DNA of 64,000 nucleotides from the NCBI GenBank assembly GCA_038501625.1, contig JAZAYU010000010.1, positions 9,197,380-9,261,379 of the forward strand, in the 5' to 3' direction. Under the pieces are notes generated by a model. It was not told where the DNA came from and made no database searches. It was given only the letters and a program-made list of their open reading frames with translations. The position numbers and the translations under genes were made by a program. Position 1 is the stretch's first letter. The number at the start of each line of letters is the position of its first letter. The stretch is from Corbicula japonica (taxonomy: Eukaryota > Mollusca > Bivalvia > Venerida > Cyrenidae). Below, piece by piece: positions 1,383-44,587 of the stretch.

Positions 1383-3542
1383 TTATGATCTAATTTGCTG
1401 TGAGTTAACACGTTCATTTACCATAATCGCTATGTGGTAAGTCGCACAATTTCTCTGCGTTGGAACTAAAGTTAATGATTGAACGAAGCATTCGAATGCC
1501 TTTTGGTTGAAACCGACCCTTTTGCAGCAAAACCCTAATATGTTCAATGCTCTGTGAACTGCAAACGTACTCATCCTTTGTTTTTGCATGTTTTCAATAA
1601 CACATTCCATGTTCCGTATTGCTGAATCCCTGTTGTTAGGCTTGTTCATGCTAGTTGCTAGTTCAAAACATAAATACTGAGCGTAAAATACAGGATGAAA
1701 TAGAGTGGTTGAAAATCTCTCGTCACCTGCATTATGAGCAAGTTCATAAACTATGGCAGGTGGTAAGCATTTTAAATCTGTAGATTCCAAATATATGTCA
1801 TACGTCCTTGCTTTTACCCGTTCTTCAGTAAATTGGATATCGGCATCTTCAGCAGTAGAAATATCTAAATAGCGACCATCCCCAAGTAAACAAAAATAAA
1901 ACATAGTTTTTACTTTCATTTGGTAAACCTGTTGCATAACGCTTAAAGCTTCTTCCAGACGGCCTTTCTTTAACCAATACGTTACAACATACATGTAACC
2001 ACTGAATCTGTCCAAGGTAACTGCTAGCTTTGTTAGTTGGGTTTCTTCGGCTGCATCTATATGGATATTACCGGCGAAAATTTGGAAAAGCAATTTTCCA
2101 GCAAGAAAGGCGTTGCATGTGTCGATAAAATCTTTATGATATTCGTGTTGTAGGTCATCAAGCAAATTCATGCAGTTTTTTATTGCCTGTGCACACTTTT
2201 CAACTGACGGTATGGCATTAAGCCAAGATGATGCTATTCGAATCAAGAACACTTTTAAAGAGCTAATTGTGGCTTGTGTATTTTCAGGTTCATTTTTTTA
2301 AATATGTAGGGTAAAGACGGTCGATAATATTAAAGCAATGTCCAATGTCTTCGTTTTCGTCTAGCCATTCAGAAACAAAATGCATCGGCCTTTTCACAAC
2401 ATCAAGTATTTTATTAAGTAACGTTGCTTTTACCACTGGATCTTGAAATTTTCCGAACATTAAATTTCTCTCTCGAAGAAATTAGTGAGGCAACGATTGC
2501 TCTTTAATGCAATCTTGTAGACGTTTCATACAAACTACAACACACAGCATTAAGTTCCGCGTCTCCCACATTTCCATACCATTTTCTTCGGACAACCAAT
2601 ATACTATTGTCTTGAGATGAAAAGAACTGAGCTCATCTTTTGCGATTGCTTTAAGATACTGAGATTTAATCACCTTGAGTATGAAGTAACACTGAATCTG
2701 ACAATCATTGAAGGTCCATACTAGTTCTCTTTCAGCAGGAACAAATGCATATCTCCATTCCAAGCCATTTGTCGTAGATGCTGGATCGCCAACTGGCAGA
2801 ACGAAACACGGCATTGATCTTACTTGCGCAATAAATGTTTCGCTGGGCCAGCCTTTTGTCCGCCTTCTCGTTAACCATTCTTTCGCGATGAAAGGCCATT
2901 CTTGGCATTGTATTGCAAGTGCAAGGTCTGTCTCAAGAGGTAACATATCACTAAATTTGTCAAACTTTTCAGACGTTATAAGTGATGCACAAGGTCCATG
3001 GTTATAAATGCTAACATTCGTATTCTGGTATACAGAGTCTTTATAATTATGTATCAAAGCATTTGTAGCGAAGATTTTGTATTTTCACTTGATAAATAAT
3101 CGGTTCCTTCATGCACTGTTAGACTATGTTTGACATGTTCGACCGTCATAGGAATATTTTCTTCGTCACTAGGTGATCGGAAAAGATATAGTTTCGTAAA
3201 TCCAGGTCTCACATCTTCTGTTTGCGATATAAAGACAAACCCAGTAGGTGTACTTAAAGATGGCGGAGCTCGTAAAACTGATATATTGGTTTCTATACTC
3301 ATGACATCCGCATCACTTCTTGTAAGGACGGTTCCCTCAGTCCCACTTCCTGTACGCATAAACGGCAAAATACCATCAAATAAATTCCTATGTATAAGTT
3401 CAGATATGATAGCCTTTGACCTACGGAATGCCAAGCAATGTTGACTGACACCCGATATAATCAGAGTCCGGGATAACCTCAAGCTGTATTCCTCCATTCT
3501 TATATCTTTGAATTATCTTCAGGTCTGATGTCTTTAAAAAGT
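1383..3542 (-). pseudogene. Mab-21/cGAS-like receptor with TPR-like tail, broken copy
   Basis: This is a paralogue of the intact exon at 8525-10676 and follows it along nearly its full length. The exon begins after a good acceptor (CCTTTTCAG, exon base 3542). Its Mab-21 frame starts at an ATG at 3497, because the phase used by the intact gene meets a stop here. Segment 1 (3497-3054) has the nucleotidyltransferase motif GSGTEG and the acidic pair D-A-D. Segment 2 (3057-2482) has the Mab-21 lobe (AIQCQEWP, LEWRYAFVPAEREL, LSSFHLKTIVYWLSEENG). Segment 3 (2252-1383) has the TPR-like tail. There are three breaks: a frameshift near 3055, a TAA at 2484-2482 where the paralogue has TAT (Tyr) in SLPHYFLRERN, and a frameshift in a run of seven A at 2299-2293. 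The surrounding protein remains highly similar to the paralogue, so inactivation looks fairly recent. Homopolymer sequencing error could explain one break but not the nonsense codon. Confidence 0.82.
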
Positions 3543-6150
3543 CTGAAAAGGAAAAGAAATGCTATACTTGATTAAAAATATACTTGTGGTTAGAAAAAGA
3601 TAAGTTAACACAGTTGGAGATGAAATCTTTGGCATATCATAAAAATCAAAGGATGTCCCTAATCAAAGGAAAAAAATTTATTTTGACAATATTTAGTTCC
3701 CACAACTTAGGTGAGTTTTGCATAGGTAGATGCAGCATAATTTGACATGTTGTATTATAAAAACACCTTTTTTCAAAGGTCTAATATAAAATATATTATG
3801 TGATATACAGGAATTTATAGTAATTTATTTAGCAACAGTAGAAATTTACAAAGCAGCATTATAAAGTAGGACTTCCCAGAATGCAAAGTATGATGTACAA
3901 TATAGGCCATTACTTTCGAGGTTTCTGTTAGTATTCCAAATATTGTAGGAATGTAAGAAAAGAAGTATTTTTAAATGTTGAAGGCAAGTAATAACAAATT
4001 ATTATTTATTAAGTACATTGTGTACACATTCTTTCGCATGCATTGAAAAAATACTATCACCGATGATGAAAGATTGGTAACCAAATGTTTGAAATCTGTG
4101 CTATTTTAAACTTAACAGTTATGACATCTTGAAAGTTGTTGGGCTGAATTGCCGACAATGTTGTTTAGAAATTCACAATATTTTGAAACTGTTTTGTTTG
4201 TCAGACATTTTTGGAATACTTAAAAGTATTATAACTGCAATTTTAATGAATTTAAGATAAAGTTAAATTAAAAAGACAGCCATTTTCCGCGACATAAGAT
4301 AATTACGTGAGTCTATGAATATTCATTTTCATATGTGTACAATTCCTCTCGATTGCTCGCCACGGCGAGTAAATGATCGTTTGGGTCGAGTGAAGCGCCC
4401 AAATCACTCAACGGACCGGGCGATTAAATTTCAGCTATGCACATCTGTTATCTTTGCAAAATTAAATGTTTTCACTTTGTTCACAAATAATTTTCTGATG
4501 TAAACATGATAAAGGTAACAGAAGCGATTTATTTTTATCCTGGTCACGGCACCAAAATGTCGTGTAGACAATAAAAATGAGAGAACGAACTATTTGACTG
4601 TTTACTTTACGGAAGTATAAACAAGTGACGTCGCAGATGTCAAAACATGGTAATATATATTGCGCGTTTCTTAACGTGACGCCGATAATGGAGCGACTTC
4701 AAAGTCCATGTAACTTTACGTGACACTGGGTTTCCCAGATCAGAACGAGGCTGCAAGTGCAGGTACTTTCCCGTCATATCTCAAAATGTCGAAAGAAATA
4801 AAATATTTTTAAAAATGTAATGGCGATTGTACTTTCTGTAAGGGCAAATGCACTTTTTCATTCACTCGACCTACAGGGCGAGTAGGTCCAAAATATAGTT
4901 GTACAGCTCTGATATCTAAACAATTCGTGCATTCCAATATATGTATAAACATATTTATTTATAATTACATTTATTTGTTTAATTATACTAGTTATGTTAT
5001 TATTTGTCTTTTGACACATTTCAGAAACACTCTTATTTTAAAAAAAACATTTCGTTTAGTCATAAAATATTTCATGTATCAATAGAAAATTAATGTTTCA
5101 ACCTTTGCTTCAAAATGCAGATAATTCTATAATAAGATTGAAAGTTACGTCCTATAATGTACACCATACCTTGCTTTTCGAAAAATTTGTAAACAAACAT
5201 GGATGTCAAATTACAGTGAGTAGTAACTTTGAGAATGATTTTGTACATTTCTGCTATTGCTTAGTTTATAATATTCTAATACATTGCTGTCCTTATTATA
5301 GACAATCTTCTTGTTGTATTAATTGTTGACAAAAATGCAAGTATAAGAAGTTTGGACTCTCACAGAAAGTCTGTTTTCAAGGTAAGAATTTGCTACAAAT
5401 TTCACTTTTATTTCGCTTTGCCTGACATTACACACTCACATTATGCAGCAAATTAAACATTAAAATAAACATTTTAGAGTTTTTAAAACGGATTTATGTC
5501 TATTTTTCGAATTGTTCTGTTACAACATACCAATAACTCTCATAGTGTACCCCTTCTGTGTTCATGTGAGACCACCTGCAAAAAAGCAAATTGTGTACCT
5601 ACCTTGTACCCTCTTTTGGACAAGTTTTTTAAGCCGTATCATTCACTAGATCCATGTACTATTTCTTTATAAATGTAAAATATCCAATAACACAATAGGT
5701 TTTTCACATTTCACCGATATGCACTCACCTGTTTATAAAACTAGCGTGATGATAAAAGGAAGAAGTTAGCATGCGACAAAAGCAGCCTTCTTGACTTTAC
5801 TTTTGTATATTCCTCTATTTAAACTTAATTTCCTTGTAGCCGGTTCATTTACCATATTTGTACAATGACTTCAGCACTATATTACCATTAAACATTTTAA
5901 AAACCACGTCTTAAACATCATGTTTATTTTAAATTTTACCCCAAAACTCTTTAACATATTATATTTTCTTAAAAGTTTTATTCAGACATAAAGATGAAAT
6001 TTACCTTATTGGATATCAACAAACATCTTTTGTAGAGATTAAGCAAGCATGAAAATGTCACCTACAATGACACAACTGCATATCACATTACTCGCATAAC
6101 AAAAAGCGGCTAACCACAAAAATGCTTTTACCTGTGAAGAATCCAATAGT
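3419..6150. repeat. Block 1 of a rearranged, mostly inverted duplication
   Basis: Segments recur in reverse complement downstream: 3419-3625 with 20040-20232, 3615-3800 with 18740-18925, 3838-4560 with about 16921-17590, 4731-4775 with 16881-16920, and 5840-6150 with 16593-16880. One piece, 5180-5450, matches 17585-17850 in the same orientation, so an internal inversion occurred in one block. The block covers the 5' exon edge and upstream intron of the Mab-21 pseudogene. No intact gene lies in it. Confidence 0.75.
5302..5381 (+). pseudogene. Exon-like fragment, possibly from a beta-propeller (NHL-like) protein
   Basis: An 80-bp stretch lies between an acceptor-like CCTTATTATAG and a consensus donor (CAAG|GTAAGA). 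Counting the G of the acceptor, its open frame reads DNLLVVLIVDKNAS...DSHRKSVFK. A same-strand copy at 17700-17780 keeps the frame (IVHNNESIGSLDSHREFVFK) and the donor, but its acceptor has decayed to ACGG. The hydrophobic strand, then D-x-N, then DSxxK...F pattern resembles one blade of NHL/TRIM-type propellers, but the similarity is weak. No partner exon with a matching phase and strand is present, so it is probably a relic. Confidence 0.35.
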
Positions 6151-6161
6151 GATAATGTCTG

Positions 6162-6374
6162 TATTGTCCAACAATATTGACCTGGCACTTCATTAATTTT
6201 CGTAAAGGTCATTGAATAAACACGGGTATCAGCGAAAACACCGATATATTATTCAATTTACACCTCAGTGATGTGTGGAGTATTGGAATAGATGACTATC
6301 GATCGTAACAATTACGAAAATTAACGAATATTCGGTCAAATGCAAGAGTGCCAGGTCAATATTGTTGGACAATA
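6162..6374. mobile_element. 213-bp MITE with 28-bp terminal inverted repeats
   Basis: The left end begins TATTGTCCAACAATATTGAC (6162 on). The right end (6347-6374) is its exact reverse complement over 28 bp. TA dinucleotides sit at both outer ends, compatible with a TA target duplication of the Tc1/mariner type. There is no coding capacity. It lies just beyond the duplicated block. Confidence 0.7.
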
Positions 6375-8520: not shown

Positions 8521-8526
8521 TTTATT
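8521..8526 (-). promoter_or_regulatory. Poly(A) signal AATAAA overlapping the Mab-21 gene stop codon
   Basis: On the minus strand the last codons read TTC TAA TAAA: the stop TAA is 8527-8525 and AATAAA is 8526-8521. If used, the 3' UTR would be only about 15-30 nt. Another AATAAA lies downstream at 8286-8281 and could serve instead. Confidence 0.5.
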
Positions 8527-10676
8527 AGAATGTACCGTTTAGAGCTGCGAGAAAAAGATTTTGTGATTTAACATAATCATTTACCATAATCGCTATATGG
8601 TACGCCGCACAATTTCTTGCTGTTGGAAACAATTTTAATGACTGTCTAAAGCACCCGAATGCCTTTTCAGGTCGGCAAACTCTTCTATAACAATAGCCTA
8701 ATACATTCAGTGCTCTATGAACTTCGGATTTATCCATTTCTTTTCTTTGCATATCATCAATAAACTGTTTTAGATTGCAAATTGCTCTTTTTGTGCTCGT
8801 TGGCCTGTCCATGCCTACCGATAACTCAAAGAAAAGATAATGAGCGTAAAGAATAGAGTGAACATTTATATTTGAAAAACCATCTTTTGCATTATGGGCA
8901 AGCTCAAAAGCTATAGCAGGAGGAAGACATGTTAAATCGGTTGAATTAAACAACATGTCATATGCTATATCTTTTTTACCCATTTGAGACAACAAGCTGA
9001 GGTCTCTAGCAGATGTTTCGATATGGAAATCAAAACCAAGCGAACCGTGATAAAGGACATTTTTCATTTGGTAAACCTTTCTCAAAACGCTTAATGCTTT
9101 TCCCAGATTGTTCTTTTTTAACCAAAACGTTGCAACATACATGTATCCGCAAAATCCTTCCAATGTACATGCTTTATTTGCTAAACGGTTTTGTTCAGTT
9201 AACTCTAATTTAAAGTAACTTGTCAGAGATAGCAAAAGCATTCTTGCTGCAATAAAGGCTTTGCATGCATCGACCAAACGTGTATCAATATCTCGTGTTT
9301 CGTTATCTAAATATCGCATGCAATCATTAATTCTTTCCACAACATATTTACGTGGCACAAATTCAAACATCGAAGATATCAATCCAATCAAGTGAAATTT
9401 GTGTTTCATGAGGTTATATTTTTCAAAACACTTTCGAACATCTCTTCCTGAAAGTTGGGATTTTAATATATCAATCGCACGATAGTGATCACGAATATAT
9501 TTGTTGCTGTTTTCATATTCTGAAACATAGTATACTGGTATTTCAATTATAGCACGTATTTCATTAATTAAAGCTTCTTTCACCCTTTGATCTCGGAACT
9601 TGCCAAACATTAAATTTCTTTCTCGCAGGAAATAATGTGGCAACGACAACTTTTCAATGCAAAATAGTAAACGCTTCAGACAAGCAACAACACAAAATAT
9701 CAAGTTACGCGTGTCCCACATTTCGATACCATTTTCTTCGGACAGCCAAAACACTACAGTCTTGAAAAGAAATGAACTAAGTTCATCTCCTGCAATTCGT
9801 TTAAGAAATTGAGATTTAATTATTTTTAGAATAAAGTAACACTGAATCTGACAATCGTTGAAACTCCATAATAGTTCTCTTTCAGCAATCACAAATGCAT
9901 ATCTCCATTCCAATTCTTTTGTTTTAGAAAATTGGTCACCAACAGGCAAAACAAAGCATGGCGTGGATCGTACATGCGCAACAAACGATTTTGACGGCCA
10001 TCCTTTTATCCTCTTTCTTGTAAACCACTCCTCAGCACTTAAAGGCCATTCGTGACATTGTATTGCCAATGATGATTCGGCCCCATCAGATGTCTTTTTC
10101 TCGGAACTGTTGTTCCGATAAAAAACTGATGAGATGCAGGGTCCATGGGTATATAAATGGAAATATGTGTACCGGACTTTTGAATTCAATTGGGTTTTCA
10201 AATAAGCAGTTGTGTGTATTTTGATTTTTTCACTAGATAAGTAAAAATTTCCATCATATTTTTCTATGCTTTTTTTGACGACATTGTCCGAAAATGAAAC
10301 GTGTTTTCTATCACTGATTTGAAGAAGAATTAGTTTCGTAAAGCCGGGTCTTACATCTGTGGTTTGCATAAGAAAGACAAAACCAGGATGTACGGACGGA
10401 GATCGCAACACAGAGATATTCTCGCACTGAGAAATGAAATCCACATCACTGTCTGGCAGTCTGGTGCCCTCAATAAAGCTTCCTGACATTAAATATATCA
10501 TATCATCTTCTTCAAGTGCACGCCTTTCTAAAGATTCAGTTATAATTGTGTTTGATTTGTTTAATTTTAAATAATTTCGACTAACACCGAAACTTTCGAT
10601 ATTCCGTGATAATTTTAAGTTATATGCTACACTCGTTACATCTTGAGTTTCTTCACCTCCAGCGGTTTTGAAAGGT
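8525..10676 (-). CDS. Mab-21/cGAS-like receptor with TPR-like tail (5'-incomplete)
   Basis: Large terminal coding exon, 716 codons from the acceptor (TCTTTCTTTTCAG|A) to TAA. The open frame runs on to 10762, but that part is intron; the true start must be in an upstream exon I could not find. Counting the first full codon (10675) as residue 1: the nucleotidyltransferase motif GSFIEG is at 65-70 with D-V-D at 77-79. The Mab-21 lobe follows, with HGPC (177-180), AIQCHEWP (about 204-211), EWRYAFVIAERELLWSFND (256-274) and LSSFLFKTVVFWLSEENG (299-316). An all-helical region follows, with TPR-like units near 511-537 and 654-684 (ALNVLGYCYRR...EKAF.CF.QSL.L.P). In this family, cGAS and animal cGLRs make cyclic dinucleotides on sensing nucleic acid and signal through STING. 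Whether this protein is catalytic is unknown: two acidic residues are visible, but I could not place the third. The similar genes and fragments nearby suggest local expansion. Confidence 0.85.
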
Positions 10677-11195
10677 CTGAAAAGAAAGAAAGATGAATTG
10701 CAGTCAACAAACGTGGTAAAATATATTAAAATACAATGAGAAAAACTAGAATCACAACACATTTAAAAAATTGTCAATTATCAAAGACACCATTCAGCTC
10801 ACCGCGTGTCTTTCCTGTGTTTGGATTCGCTTTAAGTCCCGAACAATAATTTGATCATCTCTTAGTTACATAAATTTCTAGTCTCAATCATTCAGACGCT
10901 CTGATTTCGCAAAGGCGATCAGTACGTCTGAAGACATTGTTCGTAAAAAAAACCTGACACTCCAAAATGAGGCTTGTAATTAGGACATTAGTATGTAACG
11001 CCGTTGTTGTCTTGTGAAAACTGTATTTTAGACTGTCACCCTGCCAGCTGGAAATCGAAAAGACATATGCTACGGCGACAAGCATTTTTAACTTTATTAT
11101 TGCCCATAGGCGTGCTCCAGTAAGATGGGTTCTGCGGTTACCAGAGATCTGATGAAATGTTTATTCGGACGTTGCAAGCACAATAGTTACCTTAT
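10677..11195. other. Upstream intron/flank of the Mab-21-like gene
   Basis: The polypyrimidine tract and CAG acceptor sit immediately upstream of 10676 on the minus strand. Beyond it I see no convincing first exon, promoter or start codon. A 65-codon minus-strand frame at 10888-11085 could hold a leader exon, but I cannot support it. Confidence 0.4.
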
Positions 11196-11805
11196 CCACG
11201 GTGACGAATCAAGACGGTGCCTCGTTGTGCGAATTGCGTTTCGTGTTGCCTTGTTGTCCCTTTCAACGGAACCTCGACGTCCCTATCTCACGATGTGATC
11301 AACTTCGGTACAAAAAACTCCAATTTACAAAATGTAAGTAGAAAAAATCTGAATGTCACGGAACTTCAACGATGTTAATTGTTGCTGCACATATCATTTC
11401 AGGTCAATAAATTTCTTGGTAGTCTTGTAAAATACAAAACAGATAGTTTTACTTAACAAAATGCATTGGGTCTCGCCGAAATTGTCGATGTTTCCTGTTA
11501 ATGTTATAGCTTTTATGATTTGGAGAAGTTAGGATATAATTTGAGTCAGTACTCTGTCTGCAAGTTAGCGAATATTAGTGGTTGGTGCATTAAACGCTGG
11601 TTTATTCGTTCAGGAAGATCAAGGCTTGTTTTTCCTCTGAAACGGCGCCTGTTGATGCAGTAGCTTTTTCATTGATTTTCAGACAACGGTGGCCTATGTA
11701 GCTAAAATACAACGGCGCTTTTTTCCTTCGATATATTGTTATTTGGTTCGATAACGCCAATAATAATTATTCTGATTTTCAAATATTTAAATGTAAGAAT
11801 AAGTT

Positions 11806-12610: not shown

Positions 12611-13952
12611 CCAGCTTTCAGAATGCGAAAAACTCGACGCGGGCGATCGAAGTTCTCCAATGAAATTTATAAAAACTCGATTTACTCCCTTTACATTGAA
12701 GTATCAGTTTTCTCCATGGTAAAAATTGATATTTATGTGTTGTTTTTTGTATTAACACATTATCGATCAAAATGAATTAAACCGGATTACGTCTTATGCA
12801 ACTGAAATGTGTTAATCCAATCGTCAGTTACCAGTTAACCTCGTTCTGACTCAATAAGCACTTCAGAAATTTGATTCGCTGTTTAAAAGGTCCTTATCTA
12901 AAGAAGCACATGGCACCTTTTTGTAGTTCACACGTTTTCTGTTTCTTTAGTTTAAACTTACTAGTGTGAATCTTGAAACCGAGGTGACTGTTTCTTTGTA
13001 AAATGATGTACAGCTTTGCCTAAAAGCGAACACAAGAAAGAGGTGCAGAAGGAAATTCAGTACGACCTCAAAATTCAAAATATAGCAGAATCCAAATGAT
13101 ACGTCTCCGCATTTTAACAATAATACTGTAAACGGTTTACGTACAATAAGGAACCGGTGCCACGAATCAACAGGGACCGTTCTTGTATAACATTTTTTTT
13201 AAACACTTTTAAATTGATATTCCTGAACGAATAAACCAGCGTTTAATGCACCAACCACTAATATTCGCTAACTTGCAGACAGAGTACTGACTCAAATTAT
13301 ATCCTAACTTCTCCAAATCATAAAAGCTTTAACATTAACAGGAAACATCGACAATTTCGGCGAGACCCAATGCATTTTGTTAAGTAAAACTATCTGTTTT
13401 GTATTTTACAAGACTACCAAGAAATTTATTGACCTGAAATGATATATGCAGCAACAATTAACATCGTTGAAGTTCCGTGACATTCAGATTTTTTCTACTT
13501 ACATTTTGTAAATTGGAGTTTTTTGTACCGAAGTTGATCACATCGTGAGATAGGGACGTCGAGGTTCCGTTGAAAGGGACAACAAGGCAACACGAAACGC
13601 ATTTCGCACAACGAGGCACCGTCTTGATTCGTCACCGTGGTTTTCATGTGTCGATGTCAAGACTGCTTTACACTACTGAACCATCGGAAATGAAATGGAC
13701 GGGTCCAGTGTCTAAAAATCGTTAAAATCTCCCTAGTAAATTACTCACAACAAAATTTTATGCAAGTGGGTCAATACACATCGACAAAAAGCAAGCTTTT
13801 CTGAAACAATCCATATTATTCCGATTTATTTTGAACTTGAAACCGGTAAAGAAAACGATAACATGTTCCGTCACATTTTTCTTTTAAATCAATGTAACGA
13901 TGGTAAACAGAAATTGATGCGTTTGCAATAAATGTTTCATAAAATTTTGATA

Positions 13953-14040: not shown

Positions 14041-16592
14041 GTTATCGCAACCTTAGAAATATTTTAGAAAGTCATTTTTTTTCTCTAAATTTGGACCTTT
14101 TTGGATCAAAATTACGTCTGAAGTGAAAAACTTTGCCCTACAACCTTTTTTAAAAATTTCTTAAGATAACTTCGAATTTCTTTGGCATACCCTTATGGGA
14201 ACCTTAGAAACATTTTACAAGTAGATAAATTTCCAAATTACGAAAAGAAATGTAATAAGACTATTTAGAAGTGTCAAGAAAAATAAAGCTTGAAAATCCT
14301 TTAAATTCTATTTGCAATCAAACACAAAAACGAAGCATCGCAAAACAACAACAGATCAAATGCCCACATGATCTATATGATACTGACAATATCCAATGTT
14401 CTTTAAAAGAACTTTTAAATGTAAAGAGAGAAGTCAACAATTTTTGTCATTCATTTTCGCAACCATGAAATTAAAGGCCAAAACACACTTTTACAAATAC
14501 CTCTTACTGTATACATATTTTAAACAAGATAATCTTAGATATTGTTGTTAGTAACTCATTGCTCATGAAGGCATTTAAATTGATGTTTAGTGTCGCTTTG
14601 TTGTTGTGTTTGGCTGCAGAATTAAGCGATTTTTTAAGGTCAAATTTTTTTTCTTTTCTGTTCTAACTTTTCTTAACGTATAAATAATAAACATAAATAA
14701 AATTATTTATTACTGCAAATTTTGACGGAACTGCAATTTTCCGTGAGAGAGATTTTGATATTCTTCCCTTTTGTCAATCACCATACAATGACAACTGTCA
14801 TATCATACAACGTGACAGTCTAAAACCATTATCAAGAAGAGGCAGCTACGGCGTACCATATATTTGCATTCATTTAGGTAAAATGGGATAGGCAAGTACT
14901 TCAACGTCCTTTGTTAATAAACCATATACCTGATTTTGTAGCTCGATATCATATTACCTAAATTTCCCTTTGCCCAGTGTGGGAGAAATACGGTTAAAGC
15001 ACTGCTAACAAATTTCATTAGAAATCGCGATTGATTTTGGATTTGTTTACCATACAAAAGCACCACCTGTCGGTCAGAAATATTATATAGCGATGTCTCT
15101 AGACGTTCGTCAGAGCAGTGTGACACTGATCAATGACAGAACGTCTAGATGATCTAGTCTGATAAATTTCGTGTCAATTCGATTGTATATGCAGCTTTTT
15201 TCTAGAGAGTGTCGCGAAATCAAAATTAAAGTAAAACAATCTCAAGAGTGGTTTTGAGAGTTATCATGGATGAACTTGTATGTGCCGTTTATAGAAACTG
15301 AAACAATTTATGAACATTTGATATATTGTTCTACAAAGTTCAAAACCAAACCAAGAAGTAAACGTTCAATAATAACCTATCAAGCAATGAAAATATGTGC
15401 ACCTGGTGTTCATTGTCGGTTTCTAATCCACAATTCTTCACTTTTGTTTTTCATTTAAAACATTACTTTGGTATGAAAGAGTCCAGCACTGTATACGTTT
15501 CTAATCCTTGTAATGTTCAGTTACTTTTCTATATACTATAACCCCATCACAAATATTTAATAACATTAAAACGCAATTTAAATCACACATAAATAAAATA
15601 TTCTTTTCATAAACTTATTTTTACTGCCGCTGAATACTCGTATCTATGATAAATACTGTTCAAATAGTTTATTCAGACTTGCAAAGAATATTGATTATAA
15701 TTTTGTTTACTGTATTCTCAAATATAAATATCATAATACGAGGTGTACCATCGATATGAATTATAAATATTGTGTTACTTGGCCTACTATTCATAAATTT
15801 TAAATCATATGAAATCGAAGTCGATATTTATTTTGAAGAAATTATCATTTATATATTTGGTAACAGAAAAAGGAATGCTATGTTTTGCTGGGTTTATATC
15901 AATAGATACAATGCACCATACAAAATACTTCATTCTTTTCTGAACTGTATGTTATCCATATTTTTGTGCTATTTCAGTTATTTATAATTCAGTATTTCGC
16001 CTACATGGATATGAACAGTTGTAATGTTTAAATTCAATAAATATTTGACTCTACTAGACTGTGTTTCATAAAGTATAATTTACAGTATTTTTTCTCAACT
16101 GCGTTTGGAGAAAAATAAAGAGGTATGAAATATCCAACACTGTTATAAGTTCTTATAAAAAATCCATTTTTTACATCAGGAAGATGTTATCTAATTTACT
16201 TACGCAATAAGGAATTTGCAACCTAAGGCTGTCATTTAGACATCCATTGTAGACATTTAGTATATTCAATCAGAGCTGTAATCAAGGCCTTTGTGAACGA
16301 TAACATTTATTTGTATAATACATGCTTACTATTTATAGTAAAATAATGGTAAAGTCTTTCGAGTGAGAATAGCCTAGGCTGGGACTTATTAAAATAATCG
16401 GTCCTCGGCGAGGAGCGCGCAAGCCGCAATGTTTCTTTTTTTCACATAATATATTCAAAGTGGTAATGTCTCTGCATTTAGCAGAAATATCAATTTCAGT
16501 GTATTATTTCTAAAAGGAAATATTTTATATTTTACTCGCATCTTAGATTTGAATCGTGAATATACAGACATTGGATCACTTTTTTGTTCTTC
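14041..16592. other. Gene-free AT-rich stretch
   Basis: Only short open frames (up to about 71 codons) without motifs or splice context. I see no repeat family in it. Confidence 0.5.
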
Positions 16593-16596
16593 ACAG

Positions 16597-16700
16597 GTAA
16601 AAGCATTTTTGTGGTGAGCGGCTTTTTGTTAAGTTGTGTCACTGTATGTGACATTTTTATGCTTGCTGAACCTCCACAAAAGATGTTGAAATCCATTAAG
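16597..16700 (+). pseudogene. Exon-like fragment, unknown protein
   Basis: A 104-bp stretch lies between TTCTTCACAG and a donor AAG|GTAAAT. Its open frame begins KSIFVVSGFLLSCVTVCDI and ends KMLKSIK. The inverted counterpart in block 1 (about 6140-6000, minus) has an inserted segment and an in-frame stop. The strand-rich pattern (IFVVSG...VTVCDI) could be a propeller blade. It ends in phase 0, whereas the exon-like piece at 17700 needs phase 1, so the two do not join directly. Weak evidence. Confidence 0.3.
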
Positions 16701-17699
16701 GTAAATTTCATCTTTATGTCTGAATAAAACTTTTAAGAAAATATAATATGTTAAAGAGGTCTGGGAAAAATTAAAAATAAACATGATGTTTAAGGCGTGG
16801 TTTTTAACATGTTTAATGGTAATACAGTGCTAAAGTTATTGTTCATAGTTAATAAACGGCTACAAGGAAATGAAATTACCTTGACTGCACTTGCAGCTTC
16901 GTTCTGATTTTGGAAACCCAGTTAAGATAAAAAAAAATCGCTGCTGTTACCTATATCATGTTTACATCAGAAAATTATTTTGTGAACAAAGTGAAAAGAT
17001 TTAATTTTGCAAAGAAAACAGATTTGCATTGCTGAAATTTAATCGCCCGGTCGGTCGAGTGATTTGGACGCTTCAGTCGACTCAAAGGATCATTTACTCG
17101 CCATCGAGAGGAATTGTACACATATGAAAATGAATATACATAGACAAACGTAATTATCTCATGTCGCGAAAAAATGGCTGTCTTTTCTTAATTTAACTTT
17201 ATCTTAACTTTATTAGAATTGCAGTTATAATTCCTTTAAGTATTCAACAAATGTCTGACAAAAATATTGTGAATTTCTAAACAGCACTGTCAGCTATTCA
17301 GCCCAGTAACTTTCAAGACGCCATAACTGTCAAGTTTAGAACAGCACAGATTTTAAACATTTGATTATCAATCTTTCGTCATCGGTGAGAAGTATTTTTT
17401 TCAATGCATGCGAACGAATGTGCTCATAATTTACTTAATAAATATTAATTTGTTATTACTTGCCTTCAACATTTCAAATTCTTTTCTTACATTCTAAAAT
17501 ATTTGGAATACTAACAAAAACATTGAAAGTAATGGCCTATATTGTACATCATACTGTGCATTCTGGGAAGTCCTACTTTATAAACTTGTAAACAAATATG
17601 GATGTAAAATTATAAGTACAGTCACATGGAAAATGCTGTTTGTACATTTCTACTGTTGCTTAATAAATTATCTTCTGAGACATTGTTGACCTTGTTACG

Positions 17700-17780
17700 G
17701 ACTGTCTTCCTGTGCAAGTAATTGTTCACAACAATGAAAGTATAGGAAGTTTGGACTCCCATAGAGAGTTTGTTTTCAAG
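17700..17780 (+). pseudogene. Second copy of the NHL-like exon fragment
   Basis: Same-strand copy of 5302-5381. The frame is open and the donor (CAAG|GTAAGA) is intact, but the acceptor AG is lost (TTACGG). Conserved residues include IV..N.SI.SLDSHR..VFK. Confidence 0.35.
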
Positions 17781-18244
17781 GTAAGAAATTTCTACATATT
17801 TATCTTTTATTTTGACTTTTGCTTGACATTTAACATTCATGTGCTGTATAAATGTTAAATCAAGCTAAAGGAGGTTTTGAAGTCAGAAAAAATTACTTGC
17901 CTGAAATTAGGATCTCACCCACCCAACCAGCGTCAACTCTTCCACAACAAACGATACAACCTTAATCTTATAATAAACTCGAACTAGAAACACGTTGTGT
18001 ACATTACGATACTCACGCCTGTGATTGCCATTTCATAAAGCAGTTACATTTCACATAACTATTAAAATATCAAGCATCAAGTTTATTTATAATTAATACT
18101 ACATTGTATTTGAATTTAACAAATGAGCGTAAATGTTTACTACTAACTCGACCTTCAGATCGCTCTTGTTGTTTATTATTATGAGACTGACGCGCTACCA
18201 AGGCACTAACTAACAAACAACAAACGAATTACAACTACAAACTA

Positions 18245-18273
18245 CCCCCCCCCCGCCCCCCCCCCCCCCCCCC
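18245..18273 (+). repeat. Poly-C run with one G interruption
   Basis: A 29-base run that is all C except for one G. A likely site of replication slippage or sequencing error. Confidence 0.95.
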
Positions 18274-18875
18274 ACTAAAAAATACAGGTATTCCTATGCT
18301 TCTTAATATGCAAATTTCTTTTGAAATGGCATAAGAAATAAAGTTGAAAAATAAGTAAAAATGTTTAAAAAGTGACACTTTGATTTCTTAACCGGGTAAG
18401 ACAATTTCAATTTAGGGATAATGTTTTTTTCTAGACGATTTTAACTTTTTTCTCAATTTGTCCTGTCAACATGTTCATGTACGAGTAATATTTACCCATA
18501 TAAAAATGATAATGAAAATGAATACTTTTTTAAAATTTAAATGAGACATTTGCCGCACATTTAGCTCAGAAATATTTTTAAAAAATGTAAATTTATTGCG
18601 GAGATCGTTTTATGTAAATAAATATTATTGGACTGCCCCTAACGAGAAAACAGAAGGAACAACAGAAGATTATAGAACATAGTCAAAGAAAATAAATCCT
18701 GTATATCACAGAAACTGTTCACACTATTTCAATATTTTATATTAGACCTTTGAAAAAAACCTTTTTTAAAACACAACATGTCAAATTATGCTGCATCTAC
18801 CTATGCAAAACTCACCTAAGTTGTGGGAACTAAAAATTATCAAAATGAAACATTTTTCCTTTGATTAGGGAAATC

Positions 18876-18945
18876 CTTTGATTTTTATGATAATGCCAAA
18901 GATCTCATCTCATTTGATTTTTATGATAATGCCAAAGATCTCCAA
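18876..18945. repeat. 38-bp tandem duplication
   Basis: A TTTGATTTTTATGATAATGC segment followed by CAAAGATCTC occurs twice head to tail. Block 1 of the duplication has a single diverged counterpart (about 3620-3650), so this arose after the larger duplication. Confidence 0.8.
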
Positions 18946-20122
18946 TAGCGTTCTTAAGACTGGCTTTTTTTAGCACAACAGGTAATCCTTATCAGTGACA
19001 TCAATCTAAGTTGCCCGTATGTCAGACATTGGCCAGTGTTTACATTCTTTGTCTGTCTATTGAAAGTCGCTGCAGATGCTGGGCAGTGGCAAAATTTCTC
19101 TTTGAAATACAAGGAAAATGAATTTAATATTAAGCAGAAAAGTGAAGGGTATAAACATTGTTGTTGGGGTGAATGTTGAAGTTACTTCCATTATTGTGAA
19201 AAAAGTCAATATGAAATGAAAGGAGTTTTTTCATCCCATTCCCAAGCCAATAACCAAGCCTGAAAAAATGTCAAAGGTGAATCAAGTTATGTGCAACCAA
19301 CACATTAAAAGAACCCTCGGATGTGAAAAGAAGCACATACATTTGCAGTCTACACTTTCTGGGAGGGCAGAGTCCGACTAATGTGCACCTGATCCATTTT
19401 CGGCTAGAGATACTGCAGAACAGATTTGCCTTATTTCTTAAAATATTTTTTTTCAAAGAAGCGTGTTTCTTAATGTATTTCAGTTTTTTTTTGTTTAAAT
19501 GTCATATGATGATTAGGTTATGATATGAACCCCTAACCTTTAAATTTATGTCATTCAATTCCATGTTTATTAAAAAGGTGTTTGCAAAAAAAACAACAAC
19601 ATTTGCTTGTTAATTATACAGTAAATGGGTAGACCTCGATCTAACTGTGTTCATTCGCTATTTGGAGCTTACTTCTAACCCTGGACCTAAATTTGACATA
19701 AATTGTAAAAAGTATTATGCTTTCATTTCAAGGTTGCAAGAAAATCTTTTAAAAGACCAGCCCTATCAGAGAGAATGTCCGCAATTAAACATAGTAAAAA
19801 GGCTTGTTTTTAGCCCTCTACACTCTAACCAATGTTTTAGTTGATAAACAGAATGATCTTAAATTATTCCAAATTGAAATTTTGCTCCAGGAATATCATC
19901 GTCAGTTAATTTAATTTGCAATAAGAAAGAGCAGTTTGCCATTGTTTTGTATAGAAACAAAGCATATTCAGTAAATGTTTGTATGAGGTTTACCTTTTGA
20001 CCATCTTAATCCTCTGCTAGAGATAAGTGACGTCAGAGCTGAAAGGCGCTATTGTGTGAACTTATCTTTTTCTAACCACAAGTATATTTCTAATCAAGTA
20101 TAGCATTTCTTTTCCTTTTCAG

Positions 20123-20232
20123 ACTTTCAAAGACATCAGACCTGAAGATAAACCAAAGATATAAGAATGGAGGCGTTACAGCTTAAGTTTATCCCGGACT
20201 CTGAATATATCGGGTCTCAGTAAACATTGCTT
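20123..20232 (+). pseudogene. 5' exon fragment of a Mab-21-like gene
   Basis: Matches the first about 110 bp of the exon at 3542 (minus), including the acceptor TTTCCTTTTCAG just upstream and the ATGGAGG start context. An extra base after the start shifts the frame, and it reaches TAA at the sequence ...GGGTCTCAGTAA. The match ends at AACATTGCTT, where the inverted-repeat nest begins. The rest of the gene is absent, so this is a truncated relic left by the inverted duplication. Confidence 0.75.
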
Positions 20233-27463: not shown

Positions 27464-27765
27464 TTACAAAACTATAGTCGGATTTGTTGTTCCATCTTCG
27501 TTGTCGTCTTTCTCCGGTTGATCAAACTTATCCTCAAGTCCAGGAATAATTCTCACCATATCGTCTTTTGTCGAGTTTCTTTGCATAAACTGAGTTACAA
27601 GAACAACTGCCGTCCCTTCGGCTATCATAAAAGACATTCCAGCAAAGAAGAATGACCAACCATATTCATACGCGAATTGTTTGCCTTCTTTACTTTTCAG
27701 TCTGTGACCCACTTCGTCGTTGATTGCAGAAATGTAAAGAATTATGCCGACGGCTAGTGTTAATC
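27464..27765 (-). CDS. Gamma/TARP-like gene, exon 4
   Basis: Acceptor TTCCTTTTTCGCAG|GA. The first two bases complete a Gly codon. It encodes the end of TM3 (LTLAVGIILYISAI), the second extracellular loop, TM4 (YGWSFFFAGMSFMIAEG) and an acidic tail (DKFDQPEKDDNEDG), then TAA. The last three residues, I-V-L, fit a hydrophobic-x-hydrophobic (class II) PDZ ligand. Vertebrate type I TARPs end in a class I motif instead. Confidence 0.93.
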
Positions 27766-30700
27766 CTGCGAAAAAGGAATAAAGCATTTAAGTAGCCTGT
27801 ATATACTGCAAACGTGATCCGTAGTTTATTATGTAAAATTATCTTTGTTATGATAATATTACTTAAGATAATAAGAATTCAAATATAAAGAAATCGAACA
27901 TATGGTTTAGTTGAGAGATACGAGTTAAAAATGAAAAACATACTTTTATTAAACTTTGTTTGTTAATCCAAAATGCGCCTTAAATGTTATTTCTGATGTA
28001 ATCTAGATTGATTGTTTGGCAGAGAAACAGAGACTTTGACTATGAAAACGTGATCTTTTATATGCATATTTAAACATTAATAAAAACCCAAAACAGCAAG
28101 CAATGAGGAGAGTAAAAAGAACGTAAATGATATTTTTAATTTTTACAAATTAGACAACTGTGAAAGAAATGTCAAGTAATCATAAATACAATGTAAGAGT
28201 GGATATGATATTTATACGTATCCTGACAAACTCTTAAGGTTTTAGAACTGTAATATGCACTTTTGCAGATTGGGATTTTGTTGTTTTCATTTCCAAGAAC
28301 ATCCATTTAGACATCTAAACACGAGTTTTAAAAAACATTTACCGTGCGTAACTCGAGAAATTTAGTATTTTAGAAGGGGACCCTCTGTTTCGGAAAATGG
28401 GCTGTAAAATCAAACATACTAGAAGCTAAATTCATCTCTATTTCTTTGAAACCTTGTAAAATTTTGTAAAATAAAGGCTAATTGTTTAAGGACATCATAT
28501 CTGAACAGGAAAAAACAAGCATTATGTTTAGAATTTATTTCTAACACTTTATAAATTGAGTTTTTTTAAAGTGTACCCCATTTTCGGAAATGCACATTTT
28601 TCCGATCTGCAAAAATTAAGCAAGTTTTTATCTGTAATTTTTGTGCATGTTTAATGCAGTAAAATAATTGTGTTATACATTAAAATTATCTGCAATGTGT
28701 ATAGAATCAAATAATTAAAAGAAAGGAGCACCTCACAGTCTTCGTTTTCATTTTATTGGCCTACAAAATAGGTACCTATGGCCCAGACCAAACGGTTAAA
28801 AACCACAAAAACCAAAGGGCTTGGTTTTCGAATGGTGATTTTTTTATACCCCCTCAATTTTTTTGAAAAAAAAAGAAATACGCAAGCAATCAGCTATGCT
28901 GGTTAACATTTAAACTCAAAAAAGTAACTTTGGCAACCGTAACCATAGCAACCAAAGCATTCTTTTAAAGGAAAAAATCATCGTGCAAACACATAAAATT
29001 AGTTTTATAAGACAAGTATCACAAAATTACTGTTTAATTATAGAAAGAATAAAATAGCAACATTTTCCAAAATGAAAGTACAGATTCCATAAGCATTTTA
29101 GTTTCATATCGTGATTCTGTTGCTGTATTATAAAAGAGTCAGTATTTTGTAATAATATCATTACAATATTTCAGTTTTCATGGCTGCTAAATTAAGATGA
29201 AGAATAACAATTATTTCCGAATTTTAAACCAATTGATTTTACTATTTTCTCCGAAAATTTCTTCACAATAATTTTTAAAAAAAGAAGAAGAAAAAGGGAA
29301 AAAAGGGTTCATCTCCCGAGGATTGAACCCGGGTCCGTCAAAATGAAGAATCCTGAGCGTTACCATAAGGCCAAGGATAATTGATCAAGCGGTGGTCAAT
29401 TTCATATAAGCTCTATTCATTACTGAGTGTTGTTCGTCTATATACTTATTTTGAGTATTTGTTATGAAAATATTTGTTTACTTTACATCAATTTTATATC
29501 CGCACTTTGTTATTATTTGATTTAGTTATTGATGACGTCGTAATCGCGGAAAACACCCAAAGAGTAGACTCCTTTCACGAATAATAGTATCAACCGGAAA
29601 CGTACGAATCGGCGTTCGGAAAAAAACGAATTAGTGACGGCATAAGTCGATGTTTGGCGGAAATATTACAGTTCTAAAACCTTAACATTTCTATGCATTC
29701 TAATGTGTGTGCGAAGAATGTTTGATAAATAAATTGTGTTTTTATTTTCGCTTTCCACAACATTCACGTGAAACACAAGAATACCTCCAAGGATAGCTAT
29801 AACAGCAGCCAAGAGCGTCTTGATATCTCTACGGATATTTCCTATTATACCCAGAATCACAGCTATCGTTATCAAGACCAATGCAACAACTGGAAACATC
29901 GCAGCCACCCTTGTAGCTCCTGAAGCAACAATCAATATTTAATAAATATAACGACAATATGGTTTCTTAACAAAGCAAGTGCATATATATTGCCGGTATA
30001 AACTCATACAACCCGAGCCCTTAGTAGGCTATACCGGCGATATATCACCTCATACTCTAATAAGAATAACGATATTATCGACTGATCTGTAAAAATGCTC
30101 TTTCAGGCAAATGATTAAGTTACAAACTTTTTCATAACCACATTAGTTATAATTAAACATACTCTTTTCACTGTTATTTCTAAAATAATTTATAGAAATG
30201 TTTTTGTTTGTAAATTTTGAAGTTTACATTTCGAAAGGACAAGGTATTTAGCCGAATATTCGCCACAAGGAACAACGAATATAACATATCTGTGATCAAG
30301 CCACAAACTGGCTATAGCCGCAACAATAAAAAAGCAAAATGATGGTATTTATTAACAGCATGATTTGAAAACGTTTTATCTACTTACGCATTATTGCAAA
30401 TGAAGTCTGTTGAGATTCTATCCTCTCCGTGTCAGAATGAATTGCATCATAGCTCTCACAGAATTTGTTACCATCTGAAATATCATTTTAATTGAAAGCG
30501 TTTATATATTTATAATTCATTTATTTTTACTTCAGTTGAAATTGTAAATCATAGTAAAAAAGAAATCATGCAAAACTATAACAAAGAAAGTGAAAATGAA
30601 TGTTATAATTACTTGGCTTGATAAATTTATCTTCTTCAGTGATCTTTGTTTAATGATCTGTTGAGTATATGAAATAAATATTAACTGGATTACTATTCAT

Positions 30701-39700: not shown

Positions 39701-42615
39701 GTGTTTTCTGAGTGTGGCGCTTCCTAATATGCATTTTAGCTTTTTTTAATTTTTAAGTAACACGTATTTTGCATAGGCTTTCCACTTGTCAGTGTACAGG
39801 TTTGCACTATTTCATCAAGTTAACTTGAATGCGTTGGAGGTTTAAGACAGTTTATTTATTAATGGAAACAATTTTTTGCGTAATTTTGTGGCCCTTATAA
39901 TTAGATTGAATTAGGATTGAGGCATAAATTTGATTTATACTAACGATGTAGTGGTGGATATGTATTGATTTAACGTTAACGTTTGAAAATATGTGGTCTA
40001 ACTCCATATATACTGAGCCAAAATGAAAACTTGACAAAAACTACATGGAAATTCCTATTACATGATTCTGCGTGTGAATGCAAATATCTGGAGAAATTTG
40101 ATCACCAATGTGTTAATCTTAGAAGTTGTCGGATTAGTTTCTATCGGTTTAAAAAAGAAACAAAGAAAAGAATTACATGGTTGTGGAAAATTAAGCGTTT
40201 TGATTTTTTTCTGATTTTAATTAAAAGGGAGGTAATTTGCTAAAACGGATATTTAAGTAACTGTTTCTTATTTCTTTGGGGTTTCAATGGGCTTTAAAGA
40301 TTGTGTTTTCCTCCTCTACATGCCATAAACATCAAAATTTGACAGTTAAATTATCTGTTTGAGACTTAAATGTTAACAATTGTCGATCTCAGCATTTTTA
40401 GAAAGAAGAGATAACATTGACCTCTTTGACAAGATAGCACCATCTCCCCGCTTTATCAACTGCCTAGATATGTGCAAATACCAAAAAATTGAAATGAAAG
40501 ATAAAATACATAATCATTAAAGAAAATATTTGAATTAAAATAAAGGTAAGTTTTCATTTTTCTTCAGTATAAATCTAAACAGTAATTTTTAGGTCATTTC
40601 ATCATCTACCTGCCAAATTGTTTGATCAATAGGAAAAAATATAATACTCTGTTGTTAAAAAACAAATAGTAAAAATGATATTTGATCTAGCACAGTGATT
40701 GGTCATGCAAGCAAAGTAGGACAAAACAAATGTTAAAAAGTGTATCGCATTTTAGAGGACCCAGACAGTTATTAATTATTTGTGACACTAGTCTAAAGAA
40801 TTGCTTCAGTTAAAAAAGACAATAGCAAATCCATCTTCATACAAACCCACATTTCCTTCAGTTAAAAACAATAGCAAAACGAACTTTATACAAACACACA
40901 CTGTTTTTCAAAACAGTTTCGCACAGTTCTGTATCAAATGTCTGCTTTTCTGGTAACACCAGAGCCAGAAACATCCTTACTTAATTTGTTAATGCTTAGT
41001 GATCCCATAGCAAAGTGATAAACGTTGCGATTACACGCACACATTAAATAGAGCTTAGTTAGGCTTATTTATCCCCTAATTGGTCTACATGTAGTTTTAT
41101 TTGCTACTTGCTTTACTCTACGTAAGAATACAAAATACTTGGATAATTTATGACTATCATATTCTTCAATGGAAAAAAAACAGGAGATAGCAACGTGCTG
41201 CAAATATGTTTTATAGAGAATATATAGTTGCCTGTTTTATTTTTCCTCTGATTTTTCTATTGTTTTTTTTTAATGATAAACGAATATACATATGCTTCCA
41301 TTTTCATATTTTTGAATTTTATGATCATAAACAAAACATTTCGACACATATTCAATATGTTGCAACTTTTATAATGAGATGTGTTTAGTATGGCCTATGT
41401 TATTTTTTTCTCTCACTGTTTTCATGCTCCACTTTTTAGACTTATATTTTATGTATCAACTTTTGATATGTGTTATTTCTCTCTCACTGCTTATGTTATG
41501 CTAATCCTCCCAAAAGACGTTACAGTGTACGTATGACCAGTATTTTTTTTTCTCGCCGCTTTCATGCTCTAAAGAAGAACTGTAGGTGAAAAACAGTTGA
41601 CGTTGATGATGGAATCAATACTTCCTCTCTCTGCTGTCAGACACACGGAAATTTGCTGAAAGCACGTGACATACTTCGAAATGTCAGACAACAGCAATCA
41701 GATAATAGTTTTACTGTCAGATAATAGTTTTGCTGTCACAATGTTTAAAATTCACTTGCTACTTATTGTATCATCAGTACAGAATATGTTTGTTTGTTTT
41801 TCAGAATGGAATATTAAGGCAATTTAAAGTCGAAATGGTGTTTCTTTTCACATAGTCTATTTTTATTTCATTTATTTTACATAAAACTCGCTATTAAAAC
41901 GAATGCCCAACTTGAATTTTATGTAATATTATAAAAGACATTAAATATCAAAATCTAATGTATAAACACCCAAGTTTAGTATTTTGTAGTTAAACCATGT
42001 ATTGTTACTTGTGTTCGCTTATTAATAAACGACTCGACAAAAACAATTCAGGTTTGTCTGCAAATGTTTTTGCCTAATTAAGAAATGGCTGAAGCACGGA
42101 AATATTTTCAATGTTTTATTTTATTCCAAATATAAATGACACAATTGTAAGCATTGCTCATAAAGACTTTCAAAATCAAGCAATGTAAGTAACAAATTTG
42201 TTTTTGCCAGGTACTGACGTTATCTCACATTCAAATAAAGTAATTCCAATCGGTAGTTTCAGTAAAAGTTGTTTTATTCTAAATATTTTAAGATTAGTTT
42301 TATCATTAAGAAGCAACACAATTAGGACCAATTAGACTGCCTCCATTTTAAGATAACAGTAAAATGCCATACATAAACTGTCAAATAAAGTTCGCACATA
42401 CCTGTATTAAGGCATACTTTCCAAAGTCCAAGTTGGGCTTTAAAAATCAAAATTTGGCCCGTCTGACCCGTCTGACCAGTCGTGTTGCCGGGAATTTCGT
42501 AAGATTCCGTAGTGAACAACCAGGCGTCCGTTGCTACTGACAGCGCAAGCGTTGCCACGGAAACGGCCCCTACCGCCACCGACATCACCATGAGCCCACG
42601 TGGTGTGAACACCAT
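27464..42615 (-). CDS. Calcium-channel gamma/TARP (stargazin)-like protein, 4 exons
   Basis: Joined exons 42615-42402, 30474-30388, 29919-29785 and 27765-27464 give 245 aa. All introns are phase 1 with consensus GT-AG sites, and every junction keeps the frame. Layout: TM1 about 7-31; an extracellular loop with W32, possible N-glycosylation at N44 (N-T-T), GLW at 63-65 and the C68-x8-C77 pair of the claudin superfamily; TM2 about 106-127; TM3 about 133-158; TM4 about 181-206, starting YGWSFFFAG; and a cytosolic tail ending in TIVL. The family includes neuronal auxiliary subunits of AMPA receptors and calcium channels. The AVSVATLALSVATDAWLF start and 245-aa length look closest to the gamma-5/7 type, but the subtype is uncertain. 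The start ATG (42615) has A at -1, G at -3 and G at +4. An upstream 5' UTR exon is possible, because an AG acceptor-like site lies about 15 bp before it. A short GQTGQTGQ repeat in the first loop is unusual. Confidence 0.93.
28238..29681. mobile_element. 1.44-kb TTAA-flanked element in intron 3
   Basis: The ends are inverted: GGTTTTAGAACTGTAATAT on the left, its complement on the right. Both are directly flanked by TTAA (28234-28237 and 29682-29685). A TTAA duplication is the hallmark of piggyBac-type transposition. The interior has no transposase frame and includes a tRNA-like segment (29305-29382). It lies wholly within intron 3 of the gamma-like gene, about 100 bp from exon 3. Classification as non-autonomous piggyBac-like is an inference from the target site. 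Confidence 0.65.
29305..29382 (-). tRNA. tRNA-like sequence (pseudo-tRNA or SINE head)
   Basis: On the minus strand, a near-A-box TGGCCTTATGG (29373-29363) and a perfect B box GGGTTCAATCC (29330-29320) have tRNA spacing. The T arm pairs well (CCCGGGTTCAATCCTCGGG), but no proper acceptor or anticodon stem forms. It is probably a relic, carried inside the TTAA-flanked element. Confidence 0.45.
29785..29919 (-). CDS. Gamma/TARP-like gene, exon 3
   Basis: 135 bp. Acceptor TTGTTGCTTCAG|GA and donor GGAG|GTATTC. It encodes TM2 (VAAMFPVVALVLITIAVILG), a short basic cytosolic turn (GNIRRDIK) and the first half of TM3 (TLLAAVIAILG). Reading through the donor gives a longer apparent open frame that is not real. 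Confidence 0.93.
30388..30474 (-). CDS. Gamma/TARP-like gene, exon 2
   Basis: 87 bp, too short to show as an ORF. Acceptor GATATTTCAG|AT and perfect donor ATGC|GTAAGT. It encodes GNKFCESYDAIHSDTERIES plus nine residues up to the start of TM2, including the second cysteine of the claudin-type C-x8-C pair. Its size and phase match the small second exon known from vertebrate CACNG genes. Confidence 0.9.
35577..36011. mobile_element. About 435-bp MITE-like inverted repeat
   Basis: TTCATAATATCTGATACACT at 35577 on is inverted at 35991-36011. An inner inverted pair (AAATTGTCTATTGTCTA, about 35808-35824, and its complement near 35955-35972) makes a foldback. It is non-coding. Confidence 0.6.
36971..37052. 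repeat. 26-bp-stem hairpin
   Basis: TTAAGGATTGGATCAATATT plus TGATGG pairs with its complement at 37027-37052 (two mismatches) across a 30-bp loop containing GGTATGGTACC. Confidence 0.7.
37970..37996. mobile_element. Possible hAT-type transposon end
   Basis: The segment ends CTTGCCTACGCCCCTG, the complement of a CAGGGGCGTAGG-type hAT terminus. No partner end was found nearby, so confidence is low. Confidence 0.25.
38235..38720 (-). repeat. Two dispersed family A fragments
   Basis: Both begin with TTCCTTGTGG/TTCTTGTGG, GCCTTAAAA.TGTCCCCCGTA and ATCAGTGC, then TTTCAAAG segments. They are minus-strand copies of the repeat seen full-length at 50225-50830. Confidence 0.65.
39200..39346. mobile_element. 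Palindromic MITE (family B), diverged copy
   Basis: Arms GGGCTGAAG.TTATAAAAC... and their complement. It shares GGAAACCAGTCTCAAATCTC with the copies at 48397 and 53769. The flanking 3-bp repeat is not clear here. Confidence 0.75.
39410..39730 (-). repeat. Dispersed family C copy
   Basis: Shares TTGCCACTGACCGTTCCAAG, TGTTTGTGGTGTC, and GAGGAGGCTGTG.TTTCTG with 7365-7530, 48320-48660, 55080-55165, 55295-55565 and 57480-57720. This copy is not interrupted by a palindromic MITE. Confidence 0.7.
40804..40910 (+). repeat. About 54-bp imperfect tandem duplication
   Basis: CTTCAGTTAAAAA...CAATAGCAAA...ATACAAAC occurs twice in succession. Confidence 0.7.
42402..42615 (-). CDS. Gamma/TARP-like gene, exon 1
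   Basis: Starts at ATG 42615 (GGGAAATGG). A longer frame to 42645 would start at TTG and is not used. It encodes TM1 (GLMVMSVAVGAVSVATLALS), W32, a potential N-glycosylation site, a GQT repeat and GLWKVC, ending at a consensus donor ACAG|GTATGT. The split codon GAT (Asp72) forms with exon 2. Confidence 0.92.
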
Positions 42616-43575
42616 TTCCCTTCTTGTAACTCTACACACCTTCAATTTATAAAATGAATGAGTTTTAGATATTTTCTCCAGAGTTGTATTTTCTGGAAAT
42701 AATTACATGGCTTGTTTCTTGCGTGAATGGTATTCCAGCACTTCTGTAATAATTCTATCTACCTTGTGTCAACGGTATTCCACTGTTTTCTATCAAGTCC
42801 ACTATACTTTTTTTTCAAATTATGATAACATGTTTACAAGATTATGCAAGTAATCTTGTCATGTTGGCAAAAAACTGTTTCTCAATTTCACATAATTTAC
42901 CATATTCATCAGTTTTAAAATTGTCAGATAGTTTTTGATTACGAGTTATCAAAATAATCATGACTTAAGTTTATTAAAATTTAATGTTATTGCTTTTCCA
43001 AACACTAACACTCACTTTCCAAACACAGCAGTATTTCTGTGCCAATTTTAAAACAAATTATCTACTCAGAACATTTCTTTATTCCAATTTTATCTTAAAT
43101 CGAGGTTAAAATTTCCATTTAGATAATTGTATGTTCCATGTGGGTGTTGATCACTGTTGTGTATATATAAAATGGTTTGCTGTGTCCGAAAATAGTGTTT
43201 GGCATGGAAGTTTTCCCCTACATCATATAATGACTCCATTATTGCAGATGCCCATTAGTTCTTATTGACTTTTGAATAACCAGAAAGGGTATAATTATCG
43301 TGAAAGAAACAAATTGTTCTATTGTATTCTTCTCCAGAAAGGATGGATTCTCCCACGGGATGACAGATGAAAGATTTGAAAGTATACATATTGATGTTTT
43401 TTCACAACAATTTTGTTTCAACACTATCCAGCCATCCCCAGAGAAATCAAATGTCAGCGATGAATGTTATGTTTTAACCTTAGTGGCTAAAATTACTATG
43501 TTGCGACAGGACTGATCAACACGATAGGATGAAGCAATCGCATGTATTATAACAGTGTCTCACGGCTAATAATTA
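42616..43575. other. Upstream flank of the gamma-like gene
   Basis: Expected 5' UTR/promoter side of the minus-strand gene. I see no convincing TATA box or CpG-rich patch. Short overlapping frames at 43239-43515 on both strands are not convincing. Confidence 0.35.
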
Positions 43576-43589
43576 ATAATCAAGTTCTG

Positions 43590-43860: not shown

Positions 43861-43881
43861 ATGACCACGGCTAATCATTAA

Positions 43882-44583: not shown

Positions 44584-44587
44584 TTAA

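Follow-up and report, generated by a model that had tools for sequence, protein, structure and literature searches.

A probable cGAS-like receptor gene with a tetratricopeptide-repeat-like tail in the bivalve Corbicula japonica

We analyzed a stretch of 64,000 nucleotides of the Corbicula japonica genome (contig JAZAYU010000010.1, positions 9,197,380 to 9,261,379), hereafter the window, which carries the main coding exon of a candidate cGAS-like receptor (cGLR) gene encoding a Mab-21 nucleotidyltransferase (NTase) with a helical, tetratricopeptide repeat (TPR)-like tail. The exon lies on the minus strand at 8525–10676, and its 717 residues are numbered from the codon at 10678; the open frame, Pfam matches and shuffle controls support it. 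The longest stop-to-stop frame of the window is the one that holds this exon (8525–10762, minus strand, 745 codons), whereas 40 mononucleotide shuffles of the window gave frames of at most 186 codons (mean, 125). A likely splice acceptor, an AG after a polypyrimidine tract, is located at 10677–10678 and is shared with a tandem copy of the gene, indicating that the exon start and coordinates of the original prediction were right. Since both copies retain this acceptor, a retrocopy origin is disfavoured. The predicted absence of the 5′ exon also held, as the open stretch from the acceptor to the NTase core contains no Met, and an upstream exon must therefore supply the start. An AATAAA hexamer overlapping the stop codon (8521–8526, minus strand) is a possible poly(A) signal, which may have arisen by chance.

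The core of the protein consists of two Pfam domains above their curated cut-offs, namely the Mab-21 nucleotidyltransferase domain PF03281 (9869–10414, minus strand; residues 89–270; E 5.1e-7; 30.4 bits, cut-off 24.1) and the helical Mab-21_C lobe PF20266 (9578–9853, minus strand; residues 276–367; E 3.1e-11). Together with sequence and structure comparisons, including the profile search, these matches support the assignment to the Mab-21 fold and family. The motifs described earlier were recovered by alignment on the minus strand as G66-S67 of the GS motif (10478–10483), E70 of GSxxE (10469–10471), and D78-V-D80 with the first two catalytic acids (10439–10447). In a database alignment of 39 rows, S67, E70, D78, and D80 were kept in 33, 34, 35, and 36 rows, respectively. 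The third catalytic acid, which had been reported as impossible to place, was found by single-sequence and profile alignments at E201 (10076–10078, minus strand), opposite cGAS D319. In the single-sequence alignment, residue 203 falls on a Thr two residues past D319, so that E201 falls on D319; in the profile, the Asp column corresponding to residue 201 falls on cGAS D319 and on an Asp of coral cGLR1. This register comes from alignment and strand position, without superposed coordinates. Thus, the three metal-ligand positions (D78, D80, and E201) are all acidic and in register in the alignment.

Pocket residues were placed in the same way on the minus strand: R259 (9902–9904) aligned to cGAS R376, K285 (9824–9826) to K414, and S302-F303 (9770–9775) to S435-Y436, where the cGAS numbers derive from the construct index and commonly used residue labels. 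The Arg, Lys, and Ser were each found in 36 of 39 rows, and the position after the Ser was Tyr in 32 and Phe in four. We also sampled 42 distinct open reading frames (ORFs) of at least 250 codons at 50 genomic loci, taken from the best 20 of 71 matches to the window protein and the best 30 of 150 Mab-21_C matches. Counts from this sample, which includes the window gene (L001), lean toward better matches, and divergent rows such as L021, L036, and L040 aligned unsurely. R259, K285, and S302 were present in 33, 38, and 39 of the 42 ORFs, respectively. By sequence and model, the NTase core of the window gene is complete and of the cGAS type, and its counterparts of cGAS pocket residues are conserved. 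Separately, H178, C181, C208, C241, C280, C329, C333, and H348 of the exon (8525–10676) were invariant in six aligned sequences; these residues could possibly form a structural metal site distinct from the cGAS zinc thumb.

The tail (residues 363–717; 8528–9592, minus strand) appears to be composed of TPR-type hairpins. Comparisons of sequence, profile, and structure support its earlier description as TPR-like, although the single Pfam unit (TPR_2, residues 655–686; 8621–8716, minus strand; E 1.7e-5, 25.0 bits) lies below the cut-off of 27, and the fold matches are generic (LGN, KLC, Tom70, IFIT1, IFIT5, and others). An IFIT-like RNA-binding tail was considered and rejected; the profile touches IFIT1 (E 8.8e-6), but LGN, KLC, and Tom70 score similarly or higher, indicating no special link. 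Superhelices of the TPR type usually serve to dock other proteins. Tail residues 363–505 showed 8–27% identity with five relatives, compared to 46–77% in the C-lobe. The sensor might then be this fast-evolving tail rather than the nucleic-acid face of the core. Recognition of a partner derived from a pathogen or from self would gate an NTase whose third metal ligand has been retuned to a Glu, and the product would be different or conditional. We regard this as unlikely; identity in the N-lobe is low as well (22–42%), and the remainder of the tail evolves no faster (22–51%).

Next, the gene was placed within its family. The window protein gave 71 matches in the 1.07-Gb genome, several of which belong to a single gene as separate parts (62 scored among 812 candidates), and at least 150 Mab-21_C matches were obtained, all above the cut-off and broken copies included (150 of 738 candidates scored). 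The gene thus belongs to a very large family in this genome, and expansions to over 200 cGLRs in bivalves have already been described by Li et al. (2023, PMC9980059). In the ORF sample, 29 of the 42 were at least 600 residues long, and the tail profile matched 19 of 42 (E ≤0.001, set of 42), a count that takes in the window gene together with its broken neighbour. Further copies were found on contig C10 at 9.02, 9.15, and 9.20 Mb. On contig C11, three near-identical paralogues (L034, L031, and L027) carry an altered second motif (EELDM or EEFDM) and a Cys directly after the third acid; they represent a separate branch of the expansion.

The broken neighbour is a tandem paralogue 7 kb away (1383–3551, minus strand), a pseudogene with frameshifts and an in-frame stop, whose third-acid position is Asp. 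In addition, a 180-base 5′ remnant of a third copy (20053–20232, plus strand) is 92% identical to positions 3433–3612 of this paralogue. In a local tree of 15 related rows, the outer ones on long branches, the broken copy pairs with P0001 (87/72), and the window gene adjoins that pair (100/99 for the three). The sequence upstream of the broken copy (3617–6164) recurs in pieces at 16562–18942, mostly inverted and at ~74–92% identity, beside the third-copy remnant. Another copy on the same contig, L002, has two stops. In a cluster this rich in broken copies, the window gene could itself be a recently decaying or unexpressed copy, and two further observations would fit: its 5′ exon and initiator Met were not located, and ~520 bases upstream there is an inverted-repeat element whose arms are 99% identical. 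However, its 717 codons downstream of the acceptor are open, the acceptor is retained, and comparison with the broken copy over 665 codons gave a synonymous divergence (dS) of ~0.98 and a nonsynonymous-to-synonymous ratio (dN/dS) of 0.38. By region, dN/dS was 0.49 for residues 1–200, 0.16 for residues 200–370, and 0.48 beyond. From these codon comparisons, the protein appears to be held by selection, and we consider decay or lack of expression quite unlikely.

The upstream element comprises 427-base arms (11196–11622 and 13214–13640), 99% complementary and 1591 bases apart. No stop-to-stop ORF of 100 amino acids was found inside the element, which resembles a young inverted-repeat transposon of the non-autonomous kind. 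Elsewhere in the window, a 289-base inverted repeat (84%) at 43877–44588 stands beside a 75-base tandem array at 43575–43795, in repeat-rich DNA. Two open stretches (42322–42702 and, on the minus strand, 27464–27787) showed weak PMP22/claudin matches below the cut-off; we presume a resemblance to a calcium-channel gamma subunit gene.

Taken as a whole, the locus is probably that of a mollusc cGLR in which an NTase core and a TPR-type tail would serve ligand-switched cyclic-dinucleotide synthesis acting via STING, a reading that we hold with moderate confidence. We infer the sensor function, product, and partner binding as follows. A ligand bound on the basic core, or caught by the tail, would switch the NTase on; the activated enzyme would make a cyclic dinucleotide, which in turn would act through STING; and the tail would dock a partner or keep the enzyme inactive until needed. 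The window protein has an isoelectric point (pI) of 9.04, and Li et al. (PMC9980059) give a pI above 8.5 for cGLRs that sense double-stranded DNA (dsDNA) or double-stranded RNA (dsRNA), which makes a nucleic acid plausible as the ligand. The protein lacks the zinc thumb found in vertebrate cGAS, so cGAS-style DNA sensing seems less likely than sensing of dsRNA or another ligand.

Several observations weigh against this receptor reading. Three named relatives, P0003–P0005, are acidic (pI 5.9–6.3), and for acidic cGLRs Li et al. propose non-nucleic-acid ligands; members of the branch may therefore differ in ligand. According to that source, dsDNA activates two oyster cGLRs, which weakens the zinc-thumb argument if they also lack the thumb. 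Furthermore, E201 is atypical. The third-acid column held Asp in 35, Glu in three, and Asn in one of the 39 database rows, and among the 42 genomic ORFs it held Asp in 34, Asn in two, and Glu, Ser, and Gln in one each, with three gaps, the lone Glu being that of the window gene. Lastly, the window gene departs from the literal cGLR motif given by Li et al., h[QT]GS[X8-20][DE]h[DE]h[X50-90]h[DE]h, by a Ser before GS and by 119 rather than 50–90 residues before the third acid. That Ser is common only to the window gene, P0002, and P0003 among the 39 rows, and the loop before the third acid measures 113–129 residues in the full-length rows checked from P0002 to P0011; the long loop is thus a trait of this branch. 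None of 18 rows checked (of the 39; the window gene included, two without the N-lobe) matched the literal motif.

The main rival draws on the same observations. A catalytically silent scaffold, whose Mab-21 core would bind a nucleotide or protein but produce no messenger and whose tail would bring in a kinase or adaptor, could explain the sole Glu among the 39 of 42 genomic ORFs having a residue at that position, the two departures from the literal motif, and a tail whose fold matches suggest protein docking. Such a role would resemble that of shrimp Mab21 proteins, which activate IKK-epsilon (PMC12928593); however, those proteins lack essential NTase residues according to their authors, unlike the window protein, in which all three metal-ligand positions are acidic and GS, E70, R259, K285, and S302 are retained. 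The original doubt over the third acid, on which the suggestion of a non-catalytic binder was based, is settled, as an acidic residue is present, although it is Glu where most relatives carry Asp. We judge a silent scaffold possible and rather doubtful. The gene provides a natural test set on a small scale, with a single Glu as third metal ligand among Asp-bearing relatives, a basic charge set against three acidic named relatives, and a tail that might gate the enzyme or dock a partner.

The closest match among known structures was to a cGLR. The top PDB sequence match was coral cGLR1 (E 2.5e-14), ahead of cGAS chains (1.3e-9 to 1.4e-3), Mab21L1 (8.6e-8), and MB21D2 (0.031), and a six-sequence profile (the window gene plus five others, three of them named bivalve proteins) matched coral cGLR1 at 4e-23 and cGAS chains from 6.6e-15. 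A developmental or otherwise non-immune protein of the Mab21L or MB21D2 type is therefore very unlikely, given the top match to coral cGLR1, the distance of MB21D2, and membership of a strongly expanded family that includes broken copies, a pattern not known for developmental Mab21 genes. A viral or phage origin was also rejected: 15 pattern matches in viral_contigs included none confirmed as related, phage records gave none, and viral folds gave none at E ≤0.001. The core alone, used as a protein query, returned six matches, two of them new (P0039 and P0040), and no named standalone cGLR. Alignment A4 leaves out P0026 and P0033–P0038.

Coral Sp-cGLR1 (PDB 8gjy), like the window protein, has merely a short insertion at the cGAS zinc-thumb site; its solved chain covers 376 residues without the TPR tail and shows 18% identity in the Foldseek alignment. 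In vertebrate cGAS (for example, 4ley and 5xzb), the zinc-thumb segment, with H390, C396, C397, and C404, lies opposite a 12-residue gap in the window-gene profile. Vertebrate cGAS also has Y436 where the window protein has Phe, and the window protein has the extra helical tail. The original statement that this architecture is unlike vertebrate cGAS was correct, but cGLRs with TPR modules have already been published by Li et al. (2023, PMC9980059), the only literature match combining cGLR, TPR, and Mab-21. In the portions of the papers cited here, the TPR modules of cGLRs rest on domain annotation, and no functional test of them was found.

Among other Mab-21 proteins, those of Potamilus, Sinanodonta, and Mercenaria (P0002–P0005) share the full architecture at 27–35% identity over 89–95% of the query (Potamilus 34–35%, Sinanodonta 29%, and Mercenaria 27%), with Asp as the third acid in contrast to the Glu of the window gene. 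Shrimp LvMab21-1/2/3 are likewise invertebrate Mab21 proteins, and are immune proteins, with no mention of TPR in the main text of PMC12928593. The cGLRs of Li et al. share with the window gene the Mab-21 NTase and C-lobe, the GS, DxD, and third acid, membership of a large bivalve family and, in some, TPR modules; the window gene differs in missing the literal motif and in having Glu as the third acid. By the criterion of Li et al., structural homology to known cGLRs is predicted for the window protein. In PMC10732462, the cGLR superfamily is defined by clade membership and PF03281, and the window protein carries PF03281. These comparisons indicate that the window gene is a further member of an already described receptor class, set apart by its single Glu, its long loop, and its basic charge.
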